A stretch of 56,964 nt of DNA from Clostridia bacterium (GTDB lineage: Bacteria > Bacillota > Clostridia > Oscillospirales > CAG-272): assembly GCA_017466445.1 (NCBI GenBank), contig JAFTUC010000020.1, positions 1-56,964 of the forward strand, written 5' to 3'. Positions 15,595 through 36,560 of this stretch are shown here, in pieces (positions within the stretch are counted from its first letter, which is position 1; each line of letters starts with the position of its first letter). The notes under the pieces are model-generated. The model saw only the letters and a program-made list of their open reading frames with translations, ran no database searches and was not told the origin of the DNA. The translations under genes and the position numbers were made by a program.

Positions 15595-17418
15595 ATGAAC
15601 AGTGTATTCAGACCGTATACAACAAAAGAAATAAAACCCGAGGGATGGCTCCGTGATCAGCTTGTGATACAGGCAAACGGTCTTGCCGGAAACCTTGATA
15701 AAATGTGGCCGGACGTTCGTGATAGCCGCTGGATCGGCGGAGATAAGGACGGTTGGGAAAGAGTTCCGTATTGGCTCGACGGATTTGTTCCGCTCGCGTA
15801 TCTTCTCGAGGACGAGGATATGATAGCGCGCGCAAAGAAATATATCGATGCCATACTCGACGGTCAGCAGGAGGACGGATGGATATGTCCTTGCGAAAAG
15901 CATCAGAGGGCAACCTATGATATGTGGGCGCTCTTTCTCATACTTAAGGTTCTTATCCTTTATCACGACTGCTCAAATGATCCGAGAGTAGAGGAAGCGG
16001 TGTACAGAGCACTTAAAAATTATGACGCTCACGTTGGGGGAAATCTTGTTCATAACTGGGCAAGCAGCCGCTGGTATGAATGCGTTATAGCTATCGCGTG
16101 GATCTATGCCCGTAGACCCGAAAAATGGCTCATAACACTTGCAAAGTCTCTTGAGGCACAGGGAATGGACTATACAAGAGCCTTTGACGTAATGAAGGAA
16201 AAGAGCACCGATTGGAGATATTATACTCACGTTGTGAATCTCGCAATGGCAATAAAGACCGATGCGGTCATGTCTCTTGTCGACGGCAGAGACCCGAGCA
16301 AATATGCCGAGACTCTCGCAGGATTCCTCGATACCTATCACGGAAATATCAACGAATATTTCAACGGAGACGAATGTATTTCGGGACGCTCGCCCTCGCA
16401 GGGAACAGAGCTTTGCGGAGTCGCTGAGGCTATGTATTCTTATGAGGTGCTTTCCTGCGTCTCGGGTAAGGTAAAGTGGGCGGATAAGCTTGAAAGGATC
16501 GCCTTTAACGCTTTTCCCGCAACCGTCAGTGAGGATATGTGGACGCATCAGTATAATCAGCTTTCAAATCAGCCATACTGCGTTGATTATAAAATGAAGC
16601 CGCACTTCTCGACTAACGTAAGCGGATCGCATATCTTCGGACTTGAGCCCCATTACGGATGCTGTACCGCAAATATGGGACAGGCATTCCCCAAGCTTGC
16701 TATCCACACCTTTATGAAAGCGGATGACGGAGTCGCTTTGGTCTCTCTTGCACCCGCTACGCTTTCGGACAAGATAAACGGTACTGAAGTAAGGATCACA
16801 ACCGATACGCTCTATCCGTTCAGGGATAGAGTCGATATCAGAATAAAAGCCGATAAGCCCGTAAAATTCGCGCTCAAAATAAGGATACCGGGATTTTCGG
16901 ACTCGGCTAAGGTTAACGGACAAGATGCGGCAGTCGGAGAATATTTCGTCTGTGAGAAGGAATTTTTCGATGACGTTGTCACCGTAGAGCTTCAAAACAG
17001 CGCAAAATTTGTCAAGAGAGATTCGCTTTATGCGGTAGTAAGAGGCGCGCTCACCTATACGCTTCCTGTCAAGGAAAGATGGGAGATGCACGAATACAGT
17101 GCAAACGGCGTTGAACGTAAATTCCCTTACTGCGACTACGAGATATATCCCGAGAGTGAGTGGAGATACGGATTTTCCTCCAAAGAGCTTGAATACGTTG
17201 AGCACGACGGTTATAAATCGGCGTTTTCAACCGAAAAGCCGCTCTGCGGAATAAAGACCAAGGTAAAGCGTGTCGATTGGGAATTTATGAGCGGAACTAA
17301 TTATATCGCGGATACTACTCCGAAAAGCACCGAGGGTCTCGGAGATGATATTTGCGTAGAGCTCGTTCCTTACGCGTGCGCAAAACTCAGAATGACCGAG
17401 CTTCCTTTTGTGGATTGA
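15595..17418 (+). CDS. Glycoside hydrolase family 127-like protein (beta-L-arabinofuranosidase type)
   Basis: 607 aa without signal peptide, so probably cytoplasmic. The alpha/alpha-barrel begins with IKPEGWLRDQL; the active-site region has GTELCGVAE (Glu272, Cys274, Glu278) and the CC pair of GCCTAN (Cys356-357), matching the zinc-cysteine site of GH127 (DUF1680). C-terminal beta-sandwich domains follow. GH127 releases beta-L-arabinofuranose from plant or hydroxyproline glycans; the exact sugar is not proven. AAGGAGG precedes ATG. The last 15 codons and the following 39 bp are duplicated 19 kb downstream. Confidence 0.88.
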   Translation: MNSVFRPYTTKEIKPEGWLRDQLVIQANGLAGNLDKMWPDVRDSRWIGGDKDGWERVPYWLDGFVPLAYLLEDEDMIARAKKYIDAILDGQQEDGWICPCEKHQRATYDMWALFLILKVLILYHDCSNDPRVEEAVYRALKNYDAHVGGNLVHNWASSRWYECVIAIAWIYARRPEKWLITLAKSLEAQGMDYTRAFDVMKEKSTDWRYYTHVVNLAMAIKTDAVMSLVDGRDPSKYAETLAGFLDTYHGNINEYFNGDECISGRSPSQGTELCGVAEAMYSYEVLSCVSGKVKWADKLERIAFNAFPATVSEDMWTHQYNQLSNQPYCVDYKMKPHFSTNVSGSHIFGLEPHYGCCTANMGQAFPKLAIHTFMKADDGVALVSLAPATLSDKINGTEVRITTDTLYPFRDRVDIRIKADKPVKFALKIRIPGFSDSAKVNGQDAAVGEYFVCEKEFFDDVVTVELQNSAKFVKRDSLYAVVRGALTYTLPVKERWEMHEYSANGVERKFPYCDYEIYPESEWRYGFSSKELEYVEHDGYKSAFSTEKPLCGIKTKVKRVDWEFMSGTNYIADTTPKSTEGLGDDICVELVPYACAKLRMTELPFVD

Positions 17419-17455
17419 TAAATAAAAAGGCACATTTTGGCGTACCTGCGATAAA
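17372..17455. repeat. Left copy of 84-bp direct repeat bounding the 19-kb island
   Basis: 82 of 84 bases match 36477-36560 in the same orientation. It covers the end of the GH127 coding sequence and the start of its 3' region. The left copy continues into a GTACCTGC/GCAGGTAC hairpin; the right copy diverges exactly at the hairpin loop end. Confidence 0.95.
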
Positions 17456-17468
17456 GCAGGTACAAATC

Positions 17469-17505
17469 AAAAGACATAGCTTATTTTTAGGCTATGTCTT
17501 TTTTT
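17469..17505 (+). terminator. Terminator of the GH127 gene
   Basis: 12-bp stem AAAAGACATAGC/GCTATGTCTTTT with T7. Confidence 0.9.
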
Positions 17506-17553
17506 GAATAGAAAAATAATACGATTGGTAGAATTAGGTCTATGTTGCGGTTA

Positions 17554-17582
17554 TTGATTTATAAGTTAAAATACTGTATAAT
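17554..17582 (+). promoter_or_regulatory. Promoter of broken XRE gene
   Basis: TTGATT 17554-17559, TATAAT 17577-17582, 17-bp spacer. Confidence 0.7.
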
Positions 17583-17626
17583 GTATTCAGACGCGTCGGA
17601 ACAACTTGAATTTGGAGGTTAATACT

Positions 17627-17785
17627 ATGGAACTTGTGGTTGGTGAAAAGTTGAAGAAATTGCGCCGTAACAGAGATTTGACTCAGGAAGAGGTGGCAAC
17701 TCATATTTGTATTTCATATCAAGCCATCAGCAAAAAAGCACATTGCAAAGGCAGATATACCACCATCCTTTCGGAGGTCGATTAA
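17627..17785 (+). pseudogene. Truncated XRE-family repressor
   Basis: 52 codons after a TTGGAGG site. Residues 1-35 are a clear HTH_3 N-terminus (GEKLKKLRRNRDLTQEEVA followed by ISYQAISK), the start of a type of regulator normally several times longer. After ISK the sequence loses similarity (KAHCKGRYTT) and stops, and the following DNA resembles a transposon protein in another frame. I read this as a repressor gene cut by an insertion or deletion. Confidence 0.7.
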
Positions 17786-17976
17786 ATGAATATCTTCACG
17801 AAATCGACCTTGAAGCAAACGAGATGCTTGAAACCATCGTCCTCCGCCTTGCTACCTAAAGAAGTATTGACGAGAACTTGAAAGCTCGTGATATGCTTCG
17901 TTGGGTTGCCGAGATGAACAACATCAAAGCAAGCGCAGAAGAAATCGTTTTGCGGGAGGTGGTGTTGGTAGAATAA
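17776..17976 (+). pseudogene. TnpV-like transposon protein remnant
   Basis: In the frame of 17776 the DNA encodes GRLNEYLHEIDLEANEML, an in-frame TAA at 17857-17859, then KARDMLRWVAEMNNIKASAE and an EEIVL-type ending before TAA at 17974-17976. This order (LHEID, RWV.MNNI, AEEIVL) is that of the C-terminal half of TnpV, a small protein of Tn4451-like and other clostridial mobile elements. No start or N-terminal half remains. Confidence 0.55.
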
Positions 17977-18072
17977 TCAACGAGTGCAGATCGAAACAAT
18001 CGGTCTGCACTTACTTTTTGCTTTAGAAGTAAAACTTTCAACTGACCTTCATAAAAATTCACAATTTCATCA

Positions 18073-18101
18073 TTGACAATTACATTTACGAATAGTATAA
18101 T
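18073..18101 (+). promoter_or_regulatory. Promoter of marR-ABC exporter operon
   Basis: TTGACA 18073-18078, TATAAT 18096-18101, 17-bp spacer. A GTTC-N6-GAAC inverted pair lies between the -10 and the marR start and could be a MarR operator. Confidence 0.85.
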
Positions 18102-18137
18102 ATGGAATAGTTCAAAAACGAACAAAAGGAGATTTTT

Positions 18138-18578
18138 ATGATAACGATCCAAGAAATGAACGGACACGCAAGAAAGATAGGGTTGGCATACGAAAAGGCG
18201 TTATTGCCGTTGTCTAAAGAAACCGACATGCCTCATACGGCGATAAGTATCCTTCTTTTTATTGCCAATAATCCCGAGTTTGCTACGGCAAGCTATATTT
18301 GCGATATGAGAGGACTGAAGCGCCCCGTGGTATCCGCTCACGTTGAAAGTTTGGTGCAGGGGGGATACATAGAGAGGCGCGCCGTTCCCGGAGACAGAAG
18401 AAAGGACGCCCTTGTTTGTACGGAAAAGGCGCAGAAGATCGTTGAAGCAGGACGGGAGCGTCAGATTCAGTTTGCAAAAGCGGTTTTGGAAGGGATTAGC
18501 GAGGAGGATCGCGCCGTGATGGAACGTTGCTTCAAATTGATGGACGCAAATATTGATAAGATCATAAAGGAGAAATAA
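18138..18578 (+). CDS. MarR-family transcriptional regulator
   Basis: 146 aa winged-helix regulator: a dimerisation helix at each end and a central HTH with the wing containing ERRAVPGDRRKDALV, the classical basic beta-hairpin of MarR. AAAGGAG precedes ATG 18138. It is first in a tight operon with two ABC exporter subunits (7-nt gap), the standard layout for a repressor of a drug or lipid exporter, probably autoregulated and relieved by the export substrate or a relative. Confidence 0.88.
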   Translation: MITIQEMNGHARKIGLAYEKALLPLSKETDMPHTAISILLFIANNPEFATASYICDMRGLKRPVVSAHVESLVQGGYIERRAVPGDRRKDALVCTEKAQKIVEAGRERQIQFAKAVLEGISEEDRAVMERCFKLMDANIDKIIKEK

Positions 18579-18585
18579 TTTCAAG

Positions 18586-20343
18586 ATGCTCAAATTGCTG
18601 AAATACATGAAAAATCGGGAACGCTGGATGGTTCTCGGTTGTATTGCTTTGATCATCGGACAGATCTATTTTGATCTGACGATGCCCGACTATATGAGTG
18701 ATTTGACGGTTTTGATCAACACCCCCGGAAGTGAAATGGCAGATATTCTGACTGTGGGCGCGAAAATGCTCGGTTGTACGCTTGCAAGTGCGGCACTTGC
18801 GATCGCTTGCGGATTTTTGACCTCGCGTATCGCCGCAGGATATAGCTATGCCGTCAGAGAAAAGTTGTTTTCTCACGTGATGATGCTTGGCAAAGCAGAA
18901 ACTTCAAAGTTTTCGATCCCGAGCTTGATCACAAGAACGACCAATGATATCACGCAATTGCAGATGATCGTCGTTATGGGCTTGCAATCGCTTGTAAAAG
19001 CGCCTATCATGGCGGTATGGGCGATCATCAAGATCCTCGGCAAGAGCTGGGAGCTATCTGCCGTCACCGCAGGTGCGGTGGTCGTGATCTGTACGACCGT
19101 TCTTTCTATTATGATGGTTTGTCTGCCTCGTTTCCGTAAGGTACAAAAGCTGACCGATACTCAGAACCGTATGGCAAGAGAAAATCTGACGGGTATCAAC
19201 GTAGTCCACGCTTTCAATGCGGAAGAATATCAAACCGAAAAGTTTGACGTGCCCAACACCGAGATGATGAATACGCAGCTGAAAAATCAGCGCTTGTTCT
19301 CCTTGATGCAGCCTGTGATGGGAAGTTGTATGAACGGTCTTTCCTTGGCGATCTATTGGCTCGGCGCGGCTCTAATCAATCAAATAGCACTGACCGACGT
19401 TGCGGGCAGAATTGCGATGTTCAGCGACGTTGTGGTGTTCAGCACCTATGCGACCTATGTGGTCATGTCCTTTATGATGATGGTCATGGTATTTATGATG
19501 CTTCCCGCAGCGCAGGTGTCGGCGGAGCGTATCAACGAGGTGCTTGACAGACAGGCAACCGTCACCGAGGGTGCAAATAGCAGTGCCGACGAGATCGGAA
19601 CTGTAGAGTTCAAGAACGTGTCTTTTGCTTATCCCGAGGCACAGGAGGAGGCTATTTCCGATATCTCCTTCCGCATCGAAAAGGGACAGACGCTTGCCAT
19701 CATCGGCGCAACAGGATGCGGTAAAACCACTCTCATTTCCTTGATCGCGCGCTTCTATGACGCGACGGGGGGCGAAGTCCTTGTAGACGGAGTAAACGTC
19801 AAGGATTATACCTTTGATGGCTTGTATAATAAGATCGGCTATATCACGCAAAAGGCAGTTTTGTTTGCGGGCAGTATCCGTGAGAATATTACCTTTGGAG
19901 AAAGTCGTGACGGCTTTGACGAGGAAACGGTGGATATGGCGATCTCGCTCTCTCAGGCAAAGGAATTTGTGGATAAGACCGAGGGCGGCAAGGAGCATCA
20001 CATCGTTCAGCTTGGCAAAAACGTGTCGGGCGGACAAAAGCAACGTCTTTCGATTGCCCGCGCTCTTGCAAGAAAGCCCGAAATTCTGATCTTTGACGAT
20101 TCCTTCTCGGCACTTGACTATAAGACTGATGCCACCCTTCGACACGGACTTGCAAAGGAGCTGTCGGATACCACTAAGGTCATCGTTGCGCAACGGATCA
20201 GTACCATTCGAGACGCTGATAAGATCATCGTGCTTGAGCGCGGTGAGGCAGTCGGTATCGGCACGCACGACGAGCTGATGGAAAGCTGCCCCGTCTACCG
20301 TGAGATCGCGCAGTCTCAGCTGACCGCTGCCGAGCTTGAGTAA
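18586..20343 (+). CDS. ABC exporter half-transporter, degenerate-ATPase subunit
   Basis: 585 aa: six-helix exporter membrane domain (about 15-310) followed by a nucleotide-binding domain. Walker A GATGCGKTT, signature VSGGQKQR. Walker B ends FDDSFSALD, with Asp where the catalytic Glu normally stands, and the switch position reads AQRIST instead of AHRLST. Both changes mark the non-catalytic site of heterodimeric exporters of the TM287/288 or BmrCD class. Its partner is the next gene, 12 nt downstream. Substrate unknown; drugs, peptides or lipids are all possible. Confidence 0.88.
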   Translation: MLKLLKYMKNRERWMVLGCIALIIGQIYFDLTMPDYMSDLTVLINTPGSEMADILTVGAKMLGCTLASAALAIACGFLTSRIAAGYSYAVREKLFSHVMMLGKAETSKFSIPSLITRTTNDITQLQMIVVMGLQSLVKAPIMAVWAIIKILGKSWELSAVTAGAVVVICTTVLSIMMVCLPRFRKVQKLTDTQNRMARENLTGINVVHAFNAEEYQTEKFDVPNTEMMNTQLKNQRLFSLMQPVMGSCMNGLSLAIYWLGAALINQIALTDVAGRIAMFSDVVVFSTYATYVVMSFMMMVMVFMMLPAAQVSAERINEVLDRQATVTEGANSSADEIGTVEFKNVSFAYPEAQEEAISDISFRIEKGQTLAIIGATGCGKTTLISLIARFYDATGGEVLVDGVNVKDYTFDGLYNKIGYITQKAVLFAGSIRENITFGESRDGFDEETVDMAISLSQAKEFVDKTEGGKEHHIVQLGKNVSGGQKQRLSIARALARKPEILIFDDSFSALDYKTDATLRHGLAKELSDTTKVIVAQRISTIRDADKIIVLERGEAVGIGTHDELMESCPVYREIAQSQLTAAELE

Positions 20344-20355
20344 GGAGGTGCTGAA

Positions 20356-22107
20356 ATGAGACAAACACTTGCTAAAATTTTCAAATATATGGGCAACGCG
20401 CCTCTGGTTATTTTTGCGTTGCTTCTCGCCGCGCTTGCCGCTGTCATGACGATCATCACGCCCGATAAGGTCGGAGAGATCACCGATATCATTTCCGACG
20501 GACTTGTTGGCGGCATTGATATGTCGGCTATTGCGAGAGTAGGCATCACGCTGATCGTATTTTATCTTATCGGTGCTCTTGCAAACTTTGTTCAGCATTA
20601 TATTATGGCGACCGTTACACTAAAGGCTTCCCGCAGAATGCGCCACGACCTTTCGGTCAAGATCAACAAAGTGCCGCAAAAGCAATTCGGCGAGACCTCA
20701 ACGGGAGATATTCTCAGCCGTATTACCAATGACGTATCGGTGCTTCAACAAGGAATGACCAATAGTTTGCCCACAATGATCAGCGCCGCAACACAGTTTA
20801 TCGGATGCCTAATTATGATGTTCGTGACCGAATGGCATCTTGCCCTGACCGCCGTTTTGATCACGATGGTCGGTATGGTGCTTTTGATGCTCATTATGGG
20901 ACGTTCGCAGAAATACTTTAAGCAGCGGCAGGTCAGCCTCGGCGCGCTGAACGGATACGTTGAGGAAATGTATTCGGGACACGATGTGGTTCGTATCTCC
21001 AGAGCCGAGAAGAAGGTGCTGAACCGATTCGGTAAGCTTAACAAAGACGTTTATGACGCAAACTGGAAATCTCAATTTTTGTCGGGCATGATGCAGCCGC
21101 TTATGAACGTTATCGGTAATCTTTCCTACGTTGCCGTATGTGTTATCGGCGCGGTGCTTGCCATAAACGGAACGATCAAATTCGGCGTTATTATTTCCTT
21201 TATTCTGTACGTTCGTCTTTTTACCGCTCCCTTGACGCAGATCGCGCAGGGAATGACCAATCTGCAAACGGCTACCGCAGGTGCAGGACGCATCTTTGAG
21301 TTCATGGAAGCCGAGGAGCTTGAGGATGAAAGCGGCAAGCCCAAGCACGAAACCGAGGAAACAAAGGGAGCGGTCGTATTCGATCACGTTCGCTTTGCCT
21401 ATCCCGAAAATCCCGATAAGATCATTATCAAGGATTTCTCGGCAAAAGTGACACCCGGACAAAAAGTCGCCATTGTCGGCCCCACGGGTGCGGGAAAAAC
21501 AACTATGGTCAACCTCTTGATGCGTTTCTTTGAGATCAACTGCGGCAGTATTACGGTTGACGGCACGCCCATTCACGACATTCGCCGCGAGGACGTTCAC
21601 GATATGTTCGGTATGGTATTGCAGGACACTTGGCTCTTTGAGGGAACGGTTCGTGAAAATCTTGCCTACAATATGAAAGAGATCACCGACGAGGATATTA
21701 TGCGCGTTGCCAAGGTCTGCGGAATCGACAAGTTTATTCGCTCCTTGCCGAAGGGGCTTGACACGGTGCTGACCGAGGGAACGACTATCTCGGCAGGACA
21801 AAAGCAGCTCCTCACCATCGCCCGCGCGATGCTTCAGGATGCGCCTATGCTGATCCTTGACGAAGCGACTTCATCAGTAGATACGAGAACAGAGGTCATT
21901 ATTCAAAGAGCGATGGATGAGCTGACAAAAGGAAGAACCAGCTTTGTCATCGCGCACCGCCTTTCCACGATTCGCAACGCCGATCTGATTCTTGTTATGA
22001 AGGACGGTGACGTGATCGAAAGCGGAGATCACGAAGCTCTTATGAAACAAGAAGGCTTCTACTATCAGCTTTATCAGAGTCAGTTTGACGTAGAAGAAAG
22101 CATATAA
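20356..22107 (+). CDS. ABC exporter half-transporter, catalytic subunit
   Basis: 583 aa with an exporter membrane domain and a nucleotide-binding domain: Walker A GPTGAGKTT, Walker B LILDEATSSVD with the catalytic Glu, switch His in IAHRLST. The signature is ISAGQKQ rather than LSGGQ, the complementary lesion expected for the partner of a degenerate subunit: one composite site is active, the other is not. AGGAGGTG precedes ATG. Confidence 0.9.
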   Translation: MRQTLAKIFKYMGNAPLVIFALLLAALAAVMTIITPDKVGEITDIISDGLVGGIDMSAIARVGITLIVFYLIGALANFVQHYIMATVTLKASRRMRHDLSVKINKVPQKQFGETSTGDILSRITNDVSVLQQGMTNSLPTMISAATQFIGCLIMMFVTEWHLALTAVLITMVGMVLLMLIMGRSQKYFKQRQVSLGALNGYVEEMYSGHDVVRISRAEKKVLNRFGKLNKDVYDANWKSQFLSGMMQPLMNVIGNLSYVAVCVIGAVLAINGTIKFGVIISFILYVRLFTAPLTQIAQGMTNLQTATAGAGRIFEFMEAEELEDESGKPKHETEETKGAVVFDHVRFAYPENPDKIIIKDFSAKVTPGQKVAIVGPTGAGKTTMVNLLMRFFEINCGSITVDGTPIHDIRREDVHDMFGMVLQDTWLFEGTVRENLAYNMKEITDEDIMRVAKVCGIDKFIRSLPKGLDTVLTEGTTISAGQKQLLTIARAMLQDAPMLILDEATSSVDTRTEVIIQRAMDELTKGRTSFVIAHRLSTIRNADLILVMKDGDVIESGDHEALMKQEGFYYQLYQSQFDVEESI

Positions 22108-22152
22108 TAAACATTATTTTAAGTGAATAAACAAAAAAGGAGAAATATCATT

Positions 22153-22572
22153 ATGAAAATTGCAGTAACTTATGAAAACGGACAGATCTTTCAGCATTTC
22201 GGACATACCGAGCAGTTTAAGATCTACACGGTAGAGGACGGTAAGATCGTTTCTTCCGAGGTCGTGGATACGAACGGTAGCGGTCACGGCGCGCTTGCGG
22301 GATTTCTTGCAGAACAAAACATATCCGTTCTGATCTGCGGCGGGATCGGCGGCGGTGCGCAGATGGCACTTGCGAGTGCGGGTATTCAGCTTTTTGGCGG
22401 TGTCAGCGGTTCTTGTGACGATGCGGTTAACGCATTGCTTGCAAATAACTTAAACTTCAACCCGGAGGTCAGATGCGATCACCATGACCACGAACATAGT
22501 GAAGAAGGACACACCTGCGGCAGTCACGGCTGCGGATCGCATAATTGCGGTAATCACGGATGTGGCAATTAA
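22153..22572 (+). CDS. NifX/NifB-type iron-molybdenum cofactor-binding-like protein
   Basis: 139 aa. Residues 1-105 form the small dinitrogenase-cofactor fold (starts KIAVTYENGQIFQHFGHTEQ; ICGGIGGGAQ near 60). The tail is a Cys/His-rich segment with repeated CGSHGCG/CGNHGCG units, suited to metal binding. No nitrogenase genes are nearby, so this is likely a stand-alone metal or Fe-S chaperone of the MTH1175 type. Start is ATG 22153 behind AAAGGAGA; a GTG at 22123 is in frame but unsupported. Confidence 0.8.
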   Translation: MKIAVTYENGQIFQHFGHTEQFKIYTVEDGKIVSSEVVDTNGSGHGALAGFLAEQNISVLICGGIGGGAQMALASAGIQLFGGVSGSCDDAVNALLANNLNFNPEVRCDHHDHEHSEEGHTCGSHGCGSHNCGNHGCGN

Positions 22573-22583
22573 AGGAGAATACG

Positions 22584-23381
22584 TTGAAAAAACAACATCA
22601 GGATAAGGATACAATGTTTGATGATTCGGATGAGGTGGTACTTCCGAACGCGCTTGCCACGATACAAAGCAGCGTGATGAATGCGCTCTATCATCAGACA
22701 AAGAAAATGATGGGCAGAATGGTGGATTACAAGGAACTTCGAATGATCTACGCCTGTGCGATTAAGGAGATCAAAACGAAATTTGACATATTAAACACAG
22801 AGTTCAATCTCCAATATCATCGCAATCCGATCAATTCTATTCAAACGCGCCTCAAAAGCACGGCAAGTATCATAGAGAAGCTTGCAAAGCTGAATATTCC
22901 CGTTGATATCAACAGCGTTTCAGAAAACATACACGATATTGCCGGTGTCAGAGTGATCTGTTCTTATATCGATGACGTTTATTTAGTTGCCGAAGCACTT
23001 TTGAAGCAGGACGACATTACGCTCGTTACACGAAAGGATTATATTGCAAATCCAAAGGAAAACGGGTATAGGAGTTTACATCTGATCGTTAAGGTTCCCG
23101 TGTTCCTTTCGGAGCGACGCTTGGAGATGGAGGTAGAGGTTCAGCTTCGAACCATCGCTATGGATTTTTGGGCAAGTCTTGAGCATCAGCTTCATTATAA
23201 AACCGATTTTGACGGTAAGGACGAGCTTGTAGACGAGCTTCGCAGGTGCGCCGAAACGATCAACCAAACCGACAATGATATGATGAAGATACGCTCGAAA
23301 ATGGAAACCCTTGTTGACATTCCAAGCGAGGATGAGATCTTGTTTGAGAGGATCAGAAAGCTCGATACGCCTATCGAGTAA
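22584..23381 (+). CDS. Small GTP pyrophosphokinase ((p)ppGpp synthetase, RelA/SpoT domain)
   Basis: 265 aa from TTG 22584 (AAAGGAG 6 nt upstream; an ATG at 22614 is the alternative). It has the synthetase core without the RelA hydrolase or regulatory domains: DIAGVRVICSYIDDVY, ENGYRSLHL (substrate binding) and EVQLRTIAMDFWASLEH (catalytic). This is the YjbM/YwaC-type small alarmone synthetase class, which transfers pyrophosphate from ATP to GTP or GDP under stress. It lies inside the island, between a NifX-like protein and a two-component system. Confidence 0.88.
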   Translation: MKKQHQDKDTMFDDSDEVVLPNALATIQSSVMNALYHQTKKMMGRMVDYKELRMIYACAIKEIKTKFDILNTEFNLQYHRNPINSIQTRLKSTASIIEKLAKLNIPVDINSVSENIHDIAGVRVICSYIDDVYLVAEALLKQDDITLVTRKDYIANPKENGYRSLHLIVKVPVFLSERRLEMEVEVQLRTIAMDFWASLEHQLHYKTDFDGKDELVDELRRCAETINQTDNDMMKIRSKMETLVDIPSEDEILFERIRKLDTPIE

Positions 23382-23390
23382 AATATATTT

Positions 23391-23422
23391 GGCTCACAAA
23401 CGATCTGTCTGTGAGCCTTTTC
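23391..23422 (+). terminator. Terminator after alarmone synthetase
   Basis: 8-bp stem GGCTCACA/TGTGAGCC followed by a short T tract. Confidence 0.75.
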
Positions 23423-23478
23423 AATATTTGCGAATTGTTTATTTTCGGTTTAGATTACATAGATAAAATTTTTATTGT

Positions 23479-23506
23479 ATAAGGATTATTTGATAAGGAT
23501 TATTTG
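23479..23506. repeat. Two abutting 14-bp direct repeats upstream of the response regulator
   Basis: ATAAGGATTATTTG occurs twice back to back, 32-59 bp before the response-regulator start. OmpR-type regulators bind tandem direct repeats, so this may be an autoregulatory site. Confidence 0.6.
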
Positions 23507-23537
23507 AATTGATAACTTTTAAGAAAGCGGTGAAAAA

Positions 23538-27918: not shown

Positions 27919-27938
27919 GAAATAAGGAGAATACCATC

Positions 27939-28832
27939 ATGAGAAAAGTAAAAGTTATTGCGGATTCCTGCGCTGATCTGAACGTAGCGCAGCTGAACAA
28001 ATATGGCATTGCATTTGCCAAAATGTCTACCTCCTGCGACGGTGTGGAAAGCGTTGCAACGCTTTTGTGGACGGAGGATGAGGTTCACGCACTCTACAAC
28101 AAAATGAGAGACGGCAAGCGTATCATCACGGCACAGGTCTCGGTCGAAGAATTTCAGCGTATCTTTGAAGAGTACTTAAAGCATAATATGGACATCGTTT
28201 ACATAGGCTGTTCTTCAAAGCAGTCGGGTTCTGTCAATACCGGCTTTGTCACCGCAAAGAAGCTGATGGAAAAGTATGAAGGAAGCACGATCATTTGTAT
28301 CGACTCGCTCAACGCAAGTATGGGTGAAGGAATGCTCGCCATTGAAGCGGCAAAGATGGCAAACGACGGTGCGTCCGCTACGGAAATTGAAGCGCACATA
28401 CTCGCTATTCGTAAAAAGGTCAATCAGTACGTAACCGTTCACTCTCTCGATGCTCTTAGGCGTGCGGGCAGAGTCAAGGGCTCGGCGGCGTTCTTCGGCA
28501 ATCTGATGGGAGTTAAGCCGATCATTATTGCTGACGCAAACGGTGATCAGGCAGCGTATAGAAAGGTCAAGGGCAGACAAAAGTCTTTTGAGGAGATCGT
28601 TGCTATGTTGAAGGCTTCCATCATAGAACCCGAAAAGCAAACCATCTATCTGACTCACGCCGATTGTGCGAAGGAAGAAATCGACGGGCTTGTAGAGCTT
28701 ATCAGAAAAGAGATTCCTTGCCTTGATGTAGAGGTTGGTTACATCGGCCCGATCGTCGGTGCATCCATCGGCCCCGATGCAGTCGGTATTTGGGGATTTG
28801 GACAAGAGGTAACTTACAAAATAGGAGACTAA
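27939..28832 (+). CDS. DegV-family fatty acid-binding protein (FakB)
   Basis: 297 aa with the DegV start VKVIADSCADL, central GCSSKQSGSVNTG and the hinge region HSLDALRRAGRVKGSAAFFG. Proteins of this family hold one fatty acid and present it to the kinase FakA. The very next gene is FakA-like, 2 nt away, which makes the FakB role convincing. AAGGAG precedes ATG. Confidence 0.88.
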   Translation: MRKVKVIADSCADLNVAQLNKYGIAFAKMSTSCDGVESVATLLWTEDEVHALYNKMRDGKRIITAQVSVEEFQRIFEEYLKHNMDIVYIGCSSKQSGSVNTGFVTAKKLMEKYEGSTIICIDSLNASMGEGMLAIEAAKMANDGASATEIEAHILAIRKKVNQYVTVHSLDALRRAGRVKGSAAFFGNLMGVKPIIIADANGDQAAYRKVKGRQKSFEEIVAMLKASIIEPEKQTIYLTHADCAKEEIDGLVELIRKEIPCLDVEVGYIGPIVGASIGPDAVGIWGFGQEVTYKIGD

Positions 28833-28834
28833 AT

Positions 28835-30469
28835 ATGAAGACTTTGGACGGAATTCTTTTCGCCCGTATGATAAACTCGGGCGCAGCGAACTTAAAGGCG
28901 CACGCAAAAGAGATCAACGACTTAAACGTATTTCCGATCCCCGACGGTGACACGGGGGATAATATGCTGATGACCATGATGGGCGGTGTTCATCACGATA
29001 CGAGTAGTTGCGACTCCTTGTGCGAGATGGCAGACCGCGTATCAAGCGGGATGCTTCTCTCGGCAAGAGGCAATTCGGGCGTTATTCTCTCACAGTTTTT
29101 TGAGGGCATCAAAAACGGCTTTACGGGGCTTCAAACGGCTGATACAAAAGAGATCGGTGAAGCCTTCCGTCAAGGCGTGACGCAGGCGTATAGCTCGGTT
29201 ATGACTCCTACCGAGGGAACGATATTGACCGTTGTGCGTGAGGCGACCGAGTATGCCTGTGAGCAGAATACCCAAACCCCCGAGAAATTTCTCAACGCTT
29301 TCATTGATGAAGCAAAACGCTCTCTTGCGCGTACTCCCGAGTTATTACCTGTGCTCAAAAAAGCAGGCGTGGTCGATTCGGGCGCGGCAGGTCTTATCTA
29401 CATCGTTGACGGCATGATGCGAGCTGTAATCGGTGAGGATATTGCAGATTTCTCTGAGGCATCCGAGAAAACGCAGGAGCTTGATCTTGACGCTTTCAAC
29501 GAGGACAGCGTATTGGAGTTTGGCTATTGCACCGAGCTTCTCGTTCGTTTGCAGAATGCCAAGACCGATATTTCCACATTTGACGTAAAGGTTATAACAG
29601 ACTATTTGCAGACCATAGGTGACTCTATCGTGACCGTCCGGAATGGCAGTATCGTCAAGCTCCACGTACATACCATGACCCCTCAGAAGGTGCTGGATTT
29701 CTGTCAGCAGTACGGTGAATTTCTCAAGGTCAAGATTGAAAATATGTCCTTACAGCATAACAACACAGTTACCGAAGAAAAAGAAACCTATCCCACAAAG
29801 GAACGAAAAAAATACGGAGTGGTCGCCGTTGCCTGCGGAGAGGGATTGAAAGAGACCTTCCGTGAACGAGGGGCTGACGTGATCGTGGACGGAGGTCAGA
29901 GCATGAACCCGTCCGCAGAGGATTTTATTGAAGCCTTTGACGAGGTAAACGCCGACGTGATCTTCGTGTTCCCGAACAATGGAAACATCATACTGACCGC
30001 CGAGCAAGCGGCGAATTTATATGACAAATCCGACGTGCGCGTGATCGAAAGCACAACTATCGGCGCGGGATACGCCTCTCTCGCTATGCTTGACACAAGC
30101 TCGGGCGGTACCGATGCCATCGTGGAAGATCTCCGAATGGCAATGGATGGAGTAATCACCGCTGAGATCTCTCACTGTGTCAGAGATGCCACCATTGATG
30201 GCAAGGAGATACACACGGGAGACTATATCGGCTTTGTAGGTAAAGATATGCTTTCAGTTAACGAAAGCAGACTTGTGACCGTTTGCGAAAGCATTGATGC
30301 GTTAAACTTTTCAAGGTATGATTTCTGTATTCTGATCTGCGGTAAGGACGCGACCGACGAGGAAGCAGAAAAGATCGAGGCATACGTCAATTCTCATTAC
30401 AGAGGAAAAGAGATATACATCATAAACGGCGGTCAGGACGTTTATGATTATATTATGATCGTAGAATAA
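28835..30469 (+). CDS. fakA: Fatty acid kinase, DAK2-domain subunit (FakA)
   Basis: 544 aa, close to the ~550 of S. aureus FakA. N-terminal DhaL/DAK2 ATP-binding domain with Mg-binding aspartates in FPIPDGDTGDNM and SARGNSGVILSQ; middle region and C-terminal DegV-like domain follow. It phosphorylates fatty acid bound to FakB, giving acyl-phosphate, the substrate of PlsY. Start ATG 28835 (ATAGGAG upstream) is 2 nt after the degV stop. Next gene is plsY copy 2, so the whole route from free fatty acid to lysophosphatidic acid is encoded in a row. Confidence 0.9.
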   Translation: MKTLDGILFARMINSGAANLKAHAKEINDLNVFPIPDGDTGDNMLMTMMGGVHHDTSSCDSLCEMADRVSSGMLLSARGNSGVILSQFFEGIKNGFTGLQTADTKEIGEAFRQGVTQAYSSVMTPTEGTILTVVREATEYACEQNTQTPEKFLNAFIDEAKRSLARTPELLPVLKKAGVVDSGAAGLIYIVDGMMRAVIGEDIADFSEASEKTQELDLDAFNEDSVLEFGYCTELLVRLQNAKTDISTFDVKVITDYLQTIGDSIVTVRNGSIVKLHVHTMTPQKVLDFCQQYGEFLKVKIENMSLQHNNTVTEEKETYPTKERKKYGVVAVACGEGLKETFRERGADVIVDGGQSMNPSAEDFIEAFDEVNADVIFVFPNNGNIILTAEQAANLYDKSDVRVIESTTIGAGYASLAMLDTSSGGTDAIVEDLRMAMDGVITAEISHCVRDATIDGKEIHTGDYIGFVGKDMLSVNESRLVTVCESIDALNFSRYDFCILICGKDATDEEAEKIEAYVNSHYRGKEIYIINGGQDVYDYIMIVE

Positions 30470-30482
30470 ATCGGAGACTCTT

Positions 30483-31106
30483 ATGAAGATACTTCTTTAC
30501 ATATTAGCGGCGGTATGCGGTTACGTTATCGCAGGAATGAACCCCGCAATCGCCATATCAAAAGCGGTCTATCACAAGGATATTCGTGAATGCGGAAGCG
30601 GAAATCCCGGATTCACCAATTTCAAGCGCACCTTTGGAAACAAATGGGCATGGTGGGTGCTTGTACTTGACCTTTCAAAAGCCGCAGTTGTCGTAGGACT
30701 TTTTGCGTGGCTTCTGTCCCGACAGGGCGTTGACTTTCAGCTTGGAGCGGCGTACACGGGAATGTTCTGTATGCTCGGTCATGCCTTTCCGTTCCAATTC
30801 AAATTCAAGGGTGGCAAGGGATTTCTTGTCTGCCTTTCAACAATGTACGTCATCGACTGGCGTGTGGGACTGATCGCAACGGGAATTATGGTCATTCTGC
30901 TTCTCATCACCAAATATATGTCGCTTTCCACTACTCTTTCCATGCTTCTTTGCCCGATATTGCTGATCCCGTTCGGCGCGTCTGTTCCTGTTATTCTGAT
31001 GGCACTTGCTTGCGCCGTATTTATGGCGGTCAGACATAAAGAAAACTTCATAAGGCTAATACAAGGTAAAGAAGCCAGATTCACTCTCAAGTCGAAGAAA
31101 GAATAA
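30483..31106 (+). CDS. plsY: Acyl-phosphate:glycerol-3-phosphate acyltransferase (PlsY), copy 2
   Basis: 207 aa multi-helix membrane protein with GSGNPGFTNFKRTFG and FQFKFKGGKG loops. It shares the layout of copy 1 but clearly differs in sequence, so it is a diverged paralogue, not a fresh duplication. Position directly after fakA suggests it uses FakA-made acyl-phosphate. Start ATG 30483 behind CGGAGA. Confidence 0.88.
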   Translation: MKILLYILAAVCGYVIAGMNPAIAISKAVYHKDIRECGSGNPGFTNFKRTFGNKWAWWVLVLDLSKAAVVVGLFAWLLSRQGVDFQLGAAYTGMFCMLGHAFPFQFKFKGGKGFLVCLSTMYVIDWRVGLIATGIMVILLLITKYMSLSTTLSMLLCPILLIPFGASVPVILMALACAVFMAVRHKENFIRLIQGKEARFTLKSKKE

Positions 31107-31159
31107 TAAAGGATACATGAGATTTGTTATATAAAAAACAACTTATGGGAGAAACAATT

Positions 31160-34100
31160 TTGAAGGAATACAGAGCAGGTATCGACATCGGCTCCACAAC
31201 GGTCAAGCTCGTGGTGCTGGATGCCGAGGATCATATCATATACGGACAATACAGACGACATATGGCGAAAACGCAGGAAACGCTTGCCGCGCTTTTACGC
31301 GAAGCAACGGAAACGCTTGGTGACTGTGCCTTGAAAGTGAAAATAACGGGCTCGGGCTCGATCAATCTCGGTAAAGCCCTTGGCATTGAATTTGTTCAAG
31401 AGGTCGTGGCGGTTGCGACGGCACTCAAAAAGGTTGCGCCGCAGACAGACGTTGCCATCGAGCTTGGCGGCGAGGATGCGAAGATCATCTACTTTACGGG
31501 CGGTCTTGAAGAACGCATGAACGGTGTGTGTGCGGGCGGTACGGGCTCGTTCATCGATCAGATGGCGGCACTCTTGCAGACCGATGCCGAAGGACTCAAT
31601 AAAGCAGCCGAGAATTATAAAGAAATATATCCGATTGCCGCGCGTTGCGGTGTGTTTGCCAAGACCGATATTCAGCCGCTTATTAACGAGGGAGCGACTA
31701 CGGCAGACCTTGCTGCATCCATTTTTCAAGCGGTGGTCAATCAAACCATTTCGGGTCTTGCCTGCGGAAAGCCCATTCGCGGATGCGTTGCCTTTCTCGG
31801 TGGCCCACTTCACTTTATGCCCGAGCTGAAAAAGGCGTTTATTCGCACCTTGAAGCTGACGGATGAAACCACGGTCAATCCCGAAAATTCGCACTTGTTT
31901 GCGGCAATGGGCGCGGCTCTTGAATCCGAGGGAGAATGTGCCGTTTCCGCAAGTGAGCTTGTTGGTCGGCTCTCCGAGGGTGTAAAAGTCACCTATGAAA
32001 TGCCTCGTCTTGAGCCATTGTTTGCGACAAACGAGGAATACGAGGCATTCAAGGCTCGTCATAAGACGGCAGTACTGCCCAAGGGCGATATTTCTACATA
32101 TAACGGCAATGCCTTTCTCGGAATCGACGCAGGCTCGACCACAACCAAAATGGTGCTGATCGGTACACAGGGTGAATTGCTGTTCTCATTCTATGCAAAT
32201 AATAGAGGCGATCCCATCAAGACCACCAAGGAAGCCATCGGCAAGCTGAAGGAGCAGATGCACGACGGTGTTCAAATCGTCCGTTCCTGCTCCACGGGAT
32301 ACGGCGAGGCACTTCTCAAATCCGCTTTTTCTCTTGACGAGGGTGAGGTGGAGACTATCGCGCATACAACGGCGGCATCATTCTTTGACCGTGATGTGGA
32401 CTGCGTTCTCGACATTGGCGGTCAGGACATGAAATGCATCAAGCTCAAAAACGGCGCGGTGGATACTATATTGCTTAACGAGGCTTGCTCCTCGGGGTGC
32501 GGCTCGTTCATTGAAAACTTTGCAAACTCTCTTGGCTTTACCGCCGAGGATTTTGCAAAAGAAGCGCTGTTCGCAGAAGCTCCTGTTGACCTTGGAACTC
32601 GCTGCACCGTCTTTATGAATTCCAACGTCAAGCAGGCACAAAAGGAGGGCGCATCCGTTTCGGATATTTCGGCGGGACTTGCGTACTCCGTAATCAAGAA
32701 CGCACTGTATAAGGTCATCAAGCTTGCCGATGCCAAGGATCTCGGAAAGCATATTGTTGTACAAGGCGGCACATTCCATAATGAAGCCGTTCTTCGCGCC
32801 TTTGAGAAGATCGCGGGTGTGGAAGCCACTTGCCCCGATATAGCGGGTCTGATGGGCGCATTTGGCGCGGCTCTGATCGCAAAGCAAAATTACCACGGCA
32901 AACCAACCGAGATGCTTTCTCTTGAAGAAATAACCGAGCTTACCTATACGGCAACAAGCAGACGTTGCGGCGGATGCTCCAACAACTGTATGCTTACCGT
33001 CAATCGCTTCTCAAACGGACAGAGCCATATCACCGGCAACCGTTGTGAGAAAGGAATCGGTAACGTCGGCGGCAGAAGAAAAGTACCGAATATGATGGAA
33101 TACAAGCGCAAGCGTATATTCGATTACGAGCCGCTTGACGAAAAAGACGCGCCGCGCGGTGTGATCGGTATTCCGAGAGTGCTGAATATGTACGAAAACT
33201 ATCCCTTCTGGGCGACCTTTTTCCGTGAGCTTGGCTTCCGTGCCGTGCTTTCTCCTTGGTCGAGCAGAAAAATATACGAGCTTGGTATGGAGTCGATCCC
33301 GTCCGAATCGGAGTGCTATCCGGCAAAGCTGTCCCACGGTCACGTGGAATGGCTGATCGAGCAAGGGATCAAAACCATATTCCATCCGTGCATCTACTAC
33401 GAGCATAAGGAGATCACCACGGCACAGAACCAATATAACTGTCCTATCGTTGTGTCCTATGCTGAAAATCTCAAGAATAACGTCGAAGCCATCACGCGCG
33501 GGGACGTTCGTCTCGTCCGTCCGTTTATGGCATTCACCTCGGAAAAGATCGCCGCTGACCGATTGGTCACCATTTGCCGAGAGGAGTGGAATATTCCCGA
33601 AAAAGAGGTCAGAGCCGCTGTGCTTGCCGCTTGGCAGGAGCAACAGAGAGCAAGATTTGATATTCGCGCAGAAGGAAAGAGACTGCTTTCCGATATGCAG
33701 ATGAACGGCGGTAGCGGTATTGTACTCGCAGGTCGTCCGTACCACATTGATCCCGAGATCAACCACGGCATTCCCGAGCTGATCGCATCCTACGGTTTTA
33801 CCGTGTTTACCGAGGATAGTTTGCCCGTAGATATTTCTCCCGAAAGACCTTTGCGTGTGCTTGACCAATGGGTGTACCATTCAAGGCTTTATGCCGCCGC
33901 CGAATTTGTGCGAGAACGTGACGATATGGAGCTGATACAGCTCAATTCCTTCGGCTGCGGTCTGGATGCGGTCACTACCGATCAGGTAAATGAGATACTT
34001 GAGGGCAGTAACAAGCTCTATACGGTCTTGAAGATCGACGAGGTGAACAATCTCGGCGCTGTGCGTATTCGTATTCGCAGCTTGATATCAGCTATGCGGA

Positions 34101-35383
34101 TGCGCCGTAAGCAGAATATCAAGGCAGAGCCTAAGCCAACAGTATACCACCGCACCGAATATACGCAGAAGATGAAGGACGAGAACTATACCATTCTCGC
34201 GCCTCAAATGCTGCCGATCCACTTTGATATTATCGAGTCTGTATTTCACAAGTACGGATACAATCTTGAAATACTGAAAAACGATAACCGCAAGGCAATA
34301 GATACAGGGCTGAAATATGTCAATAATGACGCTTGTTTTCCGTCGATCACCATTGTCGGTCAGTTTATGGAGGCAGTCACGTCCGGAAGATATAACACCG
34401 ATAAGCTTGCTGTTTTGATGACTCAAACGGGAGGTTGCTGCCGTGCTTCCAACTACGTTGGACTGATCAGGCGAGCCCTCGACAAAGCAGGATATTCACA
34501 TATTCCCGTGATCTCTCTCAGTATGGGCGGTATTGAGAAGAACGAGGGATTTCAGATCAATTTGAATATGATTAAGGATGCGGTGTATGCGCTTCTTTAC
34601 GGCGACCTTATTATGCGTTGCCTTTACAGAGTCAGACCTTACGAGCTGACTAAAGGCTCAGCAAACGAGTTGAGAGATAAACTCATCAAGAGTTGTATTT
34701 CCTCCTTGACCGATAAGAATGACAGGACGAGCTATCGAAAAATGTGCAACACGATCGTGCAGAGCTTTGATGCGCTTCCTGTCAACGAGAATATGAAAAA
34801 GCCTCGCGTCGGTATTGTCGGTGAGATACTTGTAAAATATATGCCGCTTGCCAATAATCACCTTGTAGAGCTTCTTGAAAGAGAGGGCGCAGAGGTTGTC
34901 GTTCCGGACTTTATTGATTTTGTCAATTACAGTATGCTTAATGCCCGTTATAAGCGGAAATATTACGGCAAATCCAGAAAAAGCGTATTTGCATCCAATT
35001 TTGTTCTTCGTATCATTGCAAACCTGAGAAAGCCTGCTATCGATGCTCTGAAAAGGAGTAAACGATTTGACGTTCCCGCACCTATCGAAGAAATTGCCGA
35101 AATGACAAAGCCTATTCTGTCGCTCGGAAATCAGTACGGTGAGGGATGGTTCCTCACGGGTGAGATGGTGGAGCTGATCACGCATGGAACGCCGAATATC
35201 GTATGTATTCAGCCCTTTGCGTGTCTGCCCAATCACGTGGTCGGCAAGGGCGTGATCAAAAAGCTCCGTGAGACCTATCTGCAGGCAAACATCGTTGCCG
35301 TGGATTACGATCCCGGAGCAAGTGAGGTAAACCAACTAAACAGAATAAAACTCATGCTGTCCGCAGCAAAGGAGCGGATGTAA
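31160..35383 (+). CDS. Giant 2-hydroxyacyl-CoA dehydratase activase/reductase fusion, plasmalogen-synthase-like
   Basis: 1407 aa from TTG 31160 (GGGAG 8 nt upstream; ATG 31145 is the alternative). Two BcrAD/BadFG ATPase modules (about 5-250 and 325-570), each starting D-x-GSTT and each with a Cys pair 39 residues apart (Cys124/163 and Cys443/482), the spacing that binds a bridging [4Fe-4S] in HgdC. Then a Cys cluster CGGCSNNC (Cys603, 606, 610, with Cys629), a DUF2229 region, and an HgdB-like C-terminal half (QTGGCCRASNY). Known relatives do ATP-driven low-potential electron transfer. From memory, C. perfringens PlsA, which converts diacyl lipids to plasmalogens, has this kind of architecture; next to plsY and fakA that role is plausible but unproven. 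Alternative: an orphan CoA-dehydratase activase. Confidence 0.8.
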   Translation: MKEYRAGIDIGSTTVKLVVLDAEDHIIYGQYRRHMAKTQETLAALLREATETLGDCALKVKITGSGSINLGKALGIEFVQEVVAVATALKKVAPQTDVAIELGGEDAKIIYFTGGLEERMNGVCAGGTGSFIDQMAALLQTDAEGLNKAAENYKEIYPIAARCGVFAKTDIQPLINEGATTADLAASIFQAVVNQTISGLACGKPIRGCVAFLGGPLHFMPELKKAFIRTLKLTDETTVNPENSHLFAAMGAALESEGECAVSASELVGRLSEGVKVTYEMPRLEPLFATNEEYEAFKARHKTAVLPKGDISTYNGNAFLGIDAGSTTTKMVLIGTQGELLFSFYANNRGDPIKTTKEAIGKLKEQMHDGVQIVRSCSTGYGEALLKSAFSLDEGEVETIAHTTAASFFDRDVDCVLDIGGQDMKCIKLKNGAVDTILLNEACSSGCGSFIENFANSLGFTAEDFAKEALFAEAPVDLGTRCTVFMNSNVKQAQKEGASVSDISAGLAYSVIKNALYKVIKLADAKDLGKHIVVQGGTFHNEAVLRAFEKIAGVEATCPDIAGLMGAFGAALIAKQNYHGKPTEMLSLEEITELTYTATSRRCGGCSNNCMLTVNRFSNGQSHITGNRCEKGIGNVGGRRKVPNMMEYKRKRIFDYEPLDEKDAPRGVIGIPRVLNMYENYPFWATFFRELGFRAVLSPWSSRKIYELGMESIPSESECYPAKLSHGHVEWLIEQGIKTIFHPCIYYEHKEITTAQNQYNCPIVVSYAENLKNNVEAITRGDVRLVRPFMAFTSEKIAADRLVTICREEWNIPEKEVRAAVLAAWQEQQRARFDIRAEGKRLLSDMQMNGGSGIVLAGRPYHIDPEINHGIPELIASYGFTVFTEDSLPVDISPERPLRVLDQWVYHSRLYAAAEFVRERDDMELIQLNSFGCGLDAVTTDQVNEILEGSNKLYTVLKIDEVNNLGAVRIRIRSLISAMRMRRKQNIKAEPKPTVYHRTEYTQKMKDENYTILAPQMLPIHFDIIESVFHKYGYNLEILKNDNRKAIDTGLKYVNNDACFPSITIVGQFMEAVTSGRYNTDKLAVLMTQTGGCCRASNYVGLIRRALDKAGYSHIPVISLSMGGIEKNEGFQINLNMIKDAVYALLYGDLIMRCLYRVRPYELTKGSANELRDKLIKSCISSLTDKNDRTSYRKMCNTIVQSFDALPVNENMKKPRVGIVGEILVKYMPLANNHLVELLEREGAEVVVPDFIDFVNYSMLNARYKRKYYGKSRKSVFASNFVLRIIANLRKPAIDALKRSKRFDVPAPIEEIAEMTKPILSLGNQYGEGWFLTGEMVELITHGTPNIVCIQPFACLPNHVVGKGVIKKLRETYLQANIVAVDYDPGASEVNQLNRIKLMLSAAKERM

Positions 35384-35404
35384 AGAAAAGGAGTATAAGA
35401 GAAA

Positions 35405-36370
35405 TTGAGCAAAAAAGGTATTATCATCGGCGCAGGCATTGCCGCCCTTGGAGTAGCCGCAGGCGTGGCTATTTCACATACGATAACGAAGGGCTTGGTA
35501 AAATTCGCAATTGAGCGCGATATGCCAAAATCGTTTGAAAAGCAAAGACCCAAGCTGACACAAGGCGATCGCGTGAAGGCTTTTCAGAAGTGCATCAACG
35601 AAACGGGAAAAATACTTCTTGAGAAGGATATCGAGGAAGTTGAGATCAGAAGCCGAGACGGACTCCGCCTTGTCGGACACTTTTATCCCTGCGAGAACGC
35701 AAAGCGCGTGATCGTTGCTATGCACGGATGGCGTTCCGCATGGTATACGGACTTTGGAATGATTGCTGACTTTTGGCATAACGAGGGGTGTAGTATTCTG
35801 TTTGCCGAGCAAAGAGCACAGAATAACAGTGAAGGCGAATATATGACCTTTGGCTATATGGAGCGTTACGATTGCCTGGATTGGATCAACTTTGTAAACG
35901 AACGCACCGAACAAAAGTATCCTATCTATTTAGCGGGTGTTTCTATGGGCGCATCCACAGTATTGATGACGGCTGGGCTTGATCTTCCCGAAAACGTCAA
36001 AGGTGTCATTGCCGACTGCGGTTTTACATCCGCTTACGATGAATGGCGTTATGTGGTCAAGGATAATATGAAGCTTTCTTACGGCTTGCGCGGACTTATG
36101 ATCGACCGCATTTGCCAAAAGAAGATCAATACCGACTCCAAGAATATCACGACGATCACTGCAATGCAGAAAACGCAGCTCCCGATCCTGTTTATTCACG
36201 GAACGGATGATAAATTCGTTCCCGTAAGAATGACGTATGAAAATTATAAAGCCTGCAACGCTCCTAAAGAGCTGTTGATCGTCCCCGGTGCTATCCACGG
36301 GGAGAGCTACTACGTAGAGCAAGAGAAGTACGAAGCGGCGACAAAAAATTTTTGGAATATATATAAGTAA
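35405..36370 (+). CDS. Alpha/beta hydrolase, membrane-anchored
   Basis: 321 aa. An N-terminal hydrophobic stretch (about 3-24) probably anchors it; then an alpha/beta-hydrolase fold with MHGWRS (oxyanion region), nucleophile elbow GVSMGAST (Ser in G-x-S-x-G), acid Asp in HGTDDKFVP and His in the final GAIHGES. Substrate unknown; as last gene of a lipid operon a phospholipase, lysophospholipase or thioesterase would fit. The start is TTG 35405, 12 nt after AAGGAG. Terminator follows. Confidence 0.82.
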   Translation: MSKKGIIIGAGIAALGVAAGVAISHTITKGLVKFAIERDMPKSFEKQRPKLTQGDRVKAFQKCINETGKILLEKDIEEVEIRSRDGLRLVGHFYPCENAKRVIVAMHGWRSAWYTDFGMIADFWHNEGCSILFAEQRAQNNSEGEYMTFGYMERYDCLDWINFVNERTEQKYPIYLAGVSMGASTVLMTAGLDLPENVKGVIADCGFTSAYDEWRYVVKDNMKLSYGLRGLMIDRICQKKINTDSKNITTITAMQKTQLPILFIHGTDDKFVPVRMTYENYKACNAPKELLIVPGAIHGESYYVEQEKYEAATKNFWNIYK

Positions 36371-36375
36371 CGCAA

Positions 36376-36407
36376 AAAGAGGTTCTGCAAAAATTCGGAA
36401 CCTCTTT
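36376..36407 (+). terminator. Terminator ending the lipid operon
   Basis: 10-bp stem AAAGAGGTTC/GAACCTCTTT; T tract is within the right arm. Confidence 0.75.
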
Positions 36408-36476
36408 AGCTTAAATATTCACTTTGCATACTGAAACATTTTGTTTCTCGGAGGCGTTATGCGAAGAAAAGACGAA

Positions 36477-36560
36477 ACGCGTGCGCAAAGCTCAGAATGA
36501 CCGAGCTTCCTTTTGTGGATTGATAAATAAAAAGGCACATTTTGGCGCACCTGCGATAAA
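36477..36560. repeat. Right copy of 84-bp direct repeat bounding the island
   Basis: Matches 17372-17455 at 82/84 positions. It carries the last 15 codons of a GH127 gene with its stop but no GH127 sequence before them, so it is an orphan fragment. Confidence 0.95.

Follow-up and report, generated by a model that had tools for sequence, protein, structure and literature searches.

Gene cassettes in the loops of host terminators and a doubled GH127 gene tail around a mosaic foreign block in a Clostridia genome

Introduction

Integrative elements that lack an integrase, such as cis-mobilizable elements (CIMEs), have direct repeats at the 3ʹ end of a gene around foreign DNA without an integrase gene. 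The same arrangement is found in a 56,964-nucleotide stretch from a Clostridia bacterium (GCA_017466445.1, contig JAFTUC010000020.1), hereafter the window, which is one whole contig (C14) of a 2.09-Mb genome that is 86.6% complete and 6.3% contaminated. Here, two direct repeats related to the 3ʹ end of a GH127 gene bracket a block of foreign genes. Unlike those of CIMEs, however, these repeats consist of a doubled gene tail and of the ends of two different cassettes. The cassettes, termed A and B, belong to a group of small mobile cassettes that are present in this Clostridia family within the loops of host intrinsic terminators.

Several described systems share features with these cassettes. 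Mobile insertion cassettes (MICs) and miniature inverted-repeat transposable elements (MITEs), of which MIC231 of Bacillus cereus is an example, likewise are small, have inverted ends, carry a passenger gene and contain no internal transposase, and they presumably move in trans, as is proposed here. Unlike MICs and MITEs, the cassettes take the loops of host intrinsic terminators as their target, place many unrelated passengers under common ends, and come without an identified parent insertion sequence (IS) in the cargo, the part that was scanned. Group IIC introns target intrinsic terminators, but the cassettes differ from them in being inserted between the two terminator arms and in having inverted repeats as ends; a scan of the window against Rfam at gathering thresholds returned three tRNAs only and no intron. 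Some IS1111/IS110 elements are reported to target folded sites, for example attC and repetitive extragenic palindromic (REP) sequences, and IS1111 elements to have subterminal inverted repeats of 11–13 bp (PMC11187229). Each such element has a sequence-specific target, whereas the arms at cassette sites differ, and no DEDD transposase gene was present in the cargo scanned. Integron gene cassettes likewise hold mostly one gene, are varied in cargo and have folded recombination sites, and one tandem pair of cassettes was seen here (locus L330). Unlike integron cassettes, those described here are bounded by two ends and dispersed among terminators, with no array at attI; attC boxes were not recognised by eye, and no integron integrase was seen, no search being aimed at one.

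To our knowledge, none of these kinds of element brings together a target in terminator loops, arms that vary from site to site and many cargo genes that share the same ends. No description of cassettes in terminator loops was found in the portions of the open-licence PubMed Central literature that were available, preprints being outside that scope. The chances are about even that these elements are a class of mobile one-gene cassettes not described before, with transcription regulators as their main cargo and with apex-to-apex insertion in terminator loops.

Two cassettes behind two copies of a GH127 tail

The GH127 gene (15595..17418, forward strand) was assigned by its Pfam GH127 domains and has orthologues with 73–77% protein identity in three genomes, G001–G003 (genomes, contigs and loci are labelled G, C and L). 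The repeats, at 17372–17455 and 36477–36560, are in the same orientation and identical at 82 of 84 positions, the differences lying at 17385 (A/G) and 17443 (T/C). A sequence-only reading of the window had reported this pair and had taken the left copy as the natural end of GH127 and the right copy as an orphan, and on each of these points it proved accurate. The left copy comprises the final 47 nt of the GH127 gene and 37 nt of its 3ʹ flank; the right copy has no GH127 ahead of it and adjoins the first six codons of a lexA-like gene. At 17385, G001–G003 carry the base of the right copy, which therefore represents the older state. Elsewhere in its own genome, the 84-base repeat has one partial match of 35 bases, on contig C33, in addition to the two full matches, and this partial match is the left end of another cassette.

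Each repeat is composite. Its first 67 bases (17372..17438 and 36477..36543, forward strand; 66/67 identical) are host sequence, made up of the GH127 tail and a left terminator arm, and the remaining 17 bases belong to the left ends (LE) of two cassettes. The arm, AATAAAAAGGCAC, precedes both cassettes A and B, and GGGTGCTTTTTATT is found 3ʹ of cassette B. Thus, the GH127 tail is present twice in the window, and a cassette left end stands behind each copy. Sequence comparison places the left end of cassette A at 17439..17463 (forward strand), with its hairpin intact. The stretch from 17440 to 17734, which covers the hairpin, a terminator and the start of an XRE gene, is 94% identical in G285 and 90% identical in G106, and upstream of the match in G285 the sequence, in the stretch compared, is different. 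On the forward strand follow a terminator-like hairpin (17470..17501), contained in a 65-base unit that is common to other genomes, and the 5ʹ part of the XRE regulator gene (17627..17734), whose complete homologue in G285 (L327) has HTH_3 and TPR domains. Cassette A is cut at 17734, and its XRE gene is fused there, at 17734/17735, to a broken TnpV fragment.

In cassette B, the left end (36544..36568, forward strand) has a decayed right hairpin arm. From approximately 36523 and through the hairpin, the sequence aligns at 78–83% with three genomes of other genera (G005, G317 and G145), and upstream of this point it is unrelated. Units A and B are thus different but both begin with the hairpin as their left end, and each recurs in other genera with its downstream sequence kept and its upstream sequence changed. 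The sequence-only reading had the left repeat running into a hairpin that the right copy breaks exactly at the loop; the hairpin is indeed intact in the left copy, but the right copy is not broken at the loop. Because the three genomes align in register, its right arm must have diverged by substitutions, and the hairpin loop was rejected as a recombination point.

Cassette B continues on the forward strand with a terminator-like hairpin read from the sequence (36586..36621), genes for a 164-aa protein without a Pfam match and for a DUF2087 protein with an ArsR-type helix-turn-helix (HTH) domain (36736..37840), an XRE open reading frame (ORF) read by eye (~37838–38088), a tail motif termed T1 (38048..38081) and an inverted right end (RE; 38235..38257). 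A homologue of its gene region is present in G001 and G003 at another place. Next comes the right terminator arm with a T-run (38260..38273), which is complementary to the left arm at an offset of one base, and then the EamA transporter gene (38269..39249, reverse strand), identified by Pfam, which is convergent with GH127 and is the next gene after GH127 in G002. Cassette B thus retains both ends, and behind it stand the second terminator arm and EamA.

The cassette family and its cargo

Of 295 genomes of the family, 54, from 29 of 71 genera, contain the hairpin core ACCTGCGATAAAGCAGGT, and none contains the reversed control. Among viral contigs, the core was found in one, at the contig edge. 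The exact pattern TTGGCGNACCTGCGATAAAGCAGGT was absent from all 80 loci of a set that had been fetched for another purpose, the study of RelA (L093–L172). Of 122 sites listed, 13 were left out, 12 of them lying less than 1 kb from a contig start, and 109 distinct contexts were taken. Many of the 122 copies sit no more than a few hundred bases from contig ends, and the cassette hairpins may for that reason break metagenome assemblies.

Sequence adjoining the hairpin is shared in a one-sided manner. Among the 109 contexts, it was common between sites in 192 pairs downstream of the hairpin and in 2 pairs upstream, one of these two being a true orthologous locus; many of the 192 pairs are between non-coding units of ~300 bp. 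Fourteen of 15 chosen long pairs link different genera. The cassettes run from the LE, TTGGCGYACCTGCGATAAAGCAGGT, to the RE, ACCTGCTTTATGGAAGGCACCCCTT, which is an imperfect inverted copy of the LE (consensus over 39 elements), and the units share a tail composed of T1 and the right end. By left end, 79 of the 109 contexts are typical, 20 are of another type (CGGCG) and 10, including plain palindromes, fall in neither class. Among the 56 typical left ends with at least 1300 bp downstream, the RE motif was found within 2.2 kb downstream in 38 and T1 in 37, versus 4 and 1, respectively, of 76 upstream controls.

Both ends were found in 40 of the 109 contexts, one of which (L315) has a false right end and is omitted from the element measurements. 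The remaining 39 elements are 217–2074 bp long, and 30 of them contain an ORF of at least 100 codons, 28 of these exactly one. In L330, a second cassette is inserted into the tail of the first, and the arms belong to the outer element. A number of loci, among them L239, L272, L273, L315 and L317–L320, contain ~300-base non-coding units with the same hairpin core, the other type of left end (CGGCG) and TGATGT-type repeats.

A cassette commonly holds a single gene, in many cases one for a regulator. Pfam assigned 13 of 25 distinct cargo proteins to XRE-type HTH regulators, two to the AraC type (one with Cass2) and one to MerR. The others include one sigma-70 factor, one GNAT protein, two TnpV proteins, one DUF6304 match below the cut-off and four proteins without a match. 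The TnpV and MerR genes sit behind hairpins other than typical left ends. None of the 25 is a recombinase, and the enzyme that moves the cassettes, a recombinase or a transposase, would act in trans.

The target is the loop of host intrinsic terminators

As a rule, an A-run (69 of the 79 typical sites) and a G+C-rich arm lie to the left of the LE, and a complementary arm with a T-run lies to the right of the RE. In the 40 contexts with both ends, a set in which L315 and the nested pair L330 are kept for the arm and dinucleotide counts, the split arms are complementary (score of at least 9) in 33, versus a mean of 5.3 and a maximum of 11 when partners were shuffled (200 shuffles). The dinucleotide at the two ends, mostly TT, is equal in 35 of 40. 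Because TT is common, approximately 26 of 40 equal pairs are expected by chance (shuffle mean 26.2, maximum 32), and none of 2000 shuffles reached the observed number.

Unsplit sites are available for comparison at L326, where two genomes of the same genus (G424 and G430) keep both neighbouring genes around an intact terminator. For this comparison, the left gene was aligned with the loci of 14 relatives, of which these two had both neighbours and the rest had the left gene only in the stretch compared; L347 matched L326 by the cassette only. Convergence of the neighbouring genes is not general, being seen at 13 of 39 elements. Both the target terminator and the cassette ends, once joined, form TT-tipped hairpins, which suggests that folded DNA is recognised in preference to sequence.

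A mosaic foreign block between the repeats

In G002, a member of the same genus, EamA directly follows GH127, and the sequence between the two genes contains a terminator-like palindrome (by eye). The empty site that the sequence-only reading had proposed to look for in relatives thus exists. In G001 and G003, GH127 is followed by another gene, which in G001 encodes an M42 peptidase. The different codon preference that had been noticed for the block was borne out when its 14 genes were compared with 23 flanking genes: none of 2000 label permutations reached the observed distance, and the block is 4.88 and 4.76 away from the two flanks, which are 2.50 from each other. Overall GC and GC3 of the block are near the values of the left flank.

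On its left, the large foreign block is bordered by the join within the cassette gene at 17734/17735, outside the repeat. The broken TnpV fragment that begins there (17735..17970, forward strand) is 90–92% identical in G218 and G117, in both of which its counterpart precedes module 1 of the block; in G117, this counterpart is a TnpV gene followed by DUF6809. In L191 and L192, which come from G218 and G117, TnpV and DUF6809 genes stand behind XRE genes cut at identical conserved codons (~SKWE-GVS), which looks as though a TnpV element used a site within XRE genes.

Three modules, each found in different genera and all on the forward strand, make up the block. Module 1 (17971..23480) encodes a MarR protein, two ABC exporters, a NifX-like protein and a RelA/SpoT domain; module 2 (23492..31106) a response regulator, a histidine kinase, PlsY, FtsH, DegV, a FakA-like protein and a further PlsY; and module 3 (31124..36370) a large CoA-enzyme activase and an alpha/beta hydrolase. 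The modules are adjacent in some genomes and separated by other genes in others. In several genera, module 1 starts at one same base (window position 17971), just 5ʹ of a terminator-like hairpin; the sequence upstream of it differs among the counterparts in L173, L177, L179–L181, L189, L191 and L192. In L174 (G093), the PlsY and activase genes, which are neighbours in the window, are separated by six ORFs, one of them CdsA-like by eye, and the window operon therefore looks shortened.

Block sequence has matches at E values of 1e-60 or better in 181 genomes (395 family genomes, 380 scored). As the earlier reading had suggested might be the case, the block occurs elsewhere with other flanks, in pieces; the best-matching of these are 90–92% identical and come from other genera. 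For the activase gene, G001 and G003 gave no match and G002 a weak one. A single donor of the whole block was considered and rejected: the stretches fetched from G044 and G020 match well at the activase only, and the modules sit in different genera. The 18.7-kb DNA behind cassette A is thus a mosaic with relatives in other genera. Consistent with the earlier reading, a Pfam scan of the 14 block ORFs found no integrase or other recombinase, one acting in trans being outside this search. The weak match of the activase to DEDD_Tnp_IS110 (6.9e-8), which lies in an ATPase-like region, was read as a shared fold and not as the sign of a transposase.

At its right side, the block ends in the promoter region and first six codons of the lexA-like gene (36415..36476, forward strand), which is cut exactly at the start of the right repeat. 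This segment matches four genomes (G135, G270, G310 and G301) over 50–62 bases at 92–98% identity, and in G301 the gene continues and encodes a Peptidase_S24 domain. The lexA-like gene of L195 (G270) is also cut after its first codons, at a point different from that in the window.

History of the locus

On balance, the locus is probably the product of recombination between two alleles that carried terminator-loop cassettes, by which the GH127 tail was doubled and the mosaic block trapped. Because cassettes A and B use the same spot, the GH127 terminator would have existed in two alleles, occupied by cassette A and cassette B, respectively. DNA of the A allele, together with the foreign block, may have entered a B-bearing chromosome via homologous recombination in GH127, and the other end of the incoming DNA, in the lexA-like gene, would have been joined illegitimately to the resident GH127 tail, doubling 67 bases. 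Homologous recombination with a second GH127-like locus, which the sequence-only reading had named as an option, comes close to this explanation, in which two alleles of GH127 would take part. The older state of the right copy at 17385 counts in favour of the two-allele history. Several observations weigh against it. The lexA-side junction shows no clear microhomology by eye, and no strain with only A or only B at GH127 is present among the available genomes. The arms around cassette B pair imperfectly, owing to the offset, and its flanking dinucleotides are unequal (TT and AA). Across the family, nine elements have a left dinucleotide other than TT, which is matched on the right in five, and Pfam detected no recombinase among the 25 cargo proteins, the only sequences between cassette ends that were searched.

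The main rival, itself rather unlikely, is a one-ended aberrant insertion, in which the LE of cassette A joined the TT of the terminator in the normal way while a distant lexA-like donor site had replaced its own RE; the wrong end would then have joined the target 67 bases upstream, the GH127 tail being copied in repair. Such an event would account for a left junction that is a normal cassette junction at TT and a right junction that is abnormal. Nevertheless, the DNA behind cassette A, a mosaic with five or more pieces, requires earlier events regardless, and the difference between the copies at 17385, where the right one has the older base, would have to be one later mutation. Misassembly, by which pieces of different genomes were joined through the repeat, is improbable: although the genome is incomplete and contaminated to the extent given above and the nearest relatives of the block are other genera, the gene order in both outer flanks is that of the genus, and it would take a pair of wrong joins, leading back into the same genome, to produce this. 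Moreover, the repeat copies differ and lead into two different units.

Little more can be said for the pattern to which the sequence-only reading had likened the repeats, that of attL and attR of an integrative element at the GH127 3ʹ end, its integrase lost or acting in trans, and this is, if anything, a shade less probable. Repeats in direct orientation at the 3ʹ end of a gene, the insertion seen by comparison with G002 and foreign codon usage would all be expected of it. However, the repeats are not the borders of the block, which starts 279 bases inward of the left repeat and at the right cuts the lexA-like gene; their last 17 of 84 bases are the ends of two different cassettes; and the block ORFs scanned include no recombinase. 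Least probable of all is that the hairpins are not cassette ends but common terminators, or palindromes of the REP type, carried along with adjacent genes. The 10 of 109 contexts in neither left-end class, plain palindromes among them, and the units without genes would fit such a view, but the one-sided sharing, the two inverted ends, the split host terminators and the two unsplit sites do not.

Other repeats in the window

Six families of direct repeats of at least 30 nt are present in the window, and the five other than the 84-base pair are tandem arrays or shorter pairs with 77–83% identity. At 5188–5717, in the region of an ORF on the reverse strand (4977–6299), a 39-base unit is repeated head to tail in at least 10 copies. 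Four repeat units of ~163 bases occupy 47737–48339, 3ʹ of a tRNA-Glu gene (47523–47594), and an inverted repeat at 47572–47659 overlaps the 3ʹ part of this tRNA.

Implications

Direct repeats at the 3ʹ end of a gene can be something other than att sites. The signature of LE, RE and split terminator arms allows cassettes to be counted in genomes and the enzyme that moves them to be sought. If the proposed history and class are correct, terminators would serve as safe landing sites from which regulators spread between genera, and the cassettes would act as homologous anchors for larger foreign DNA. This would also explain how single regulators pass between genera without breaking genes.

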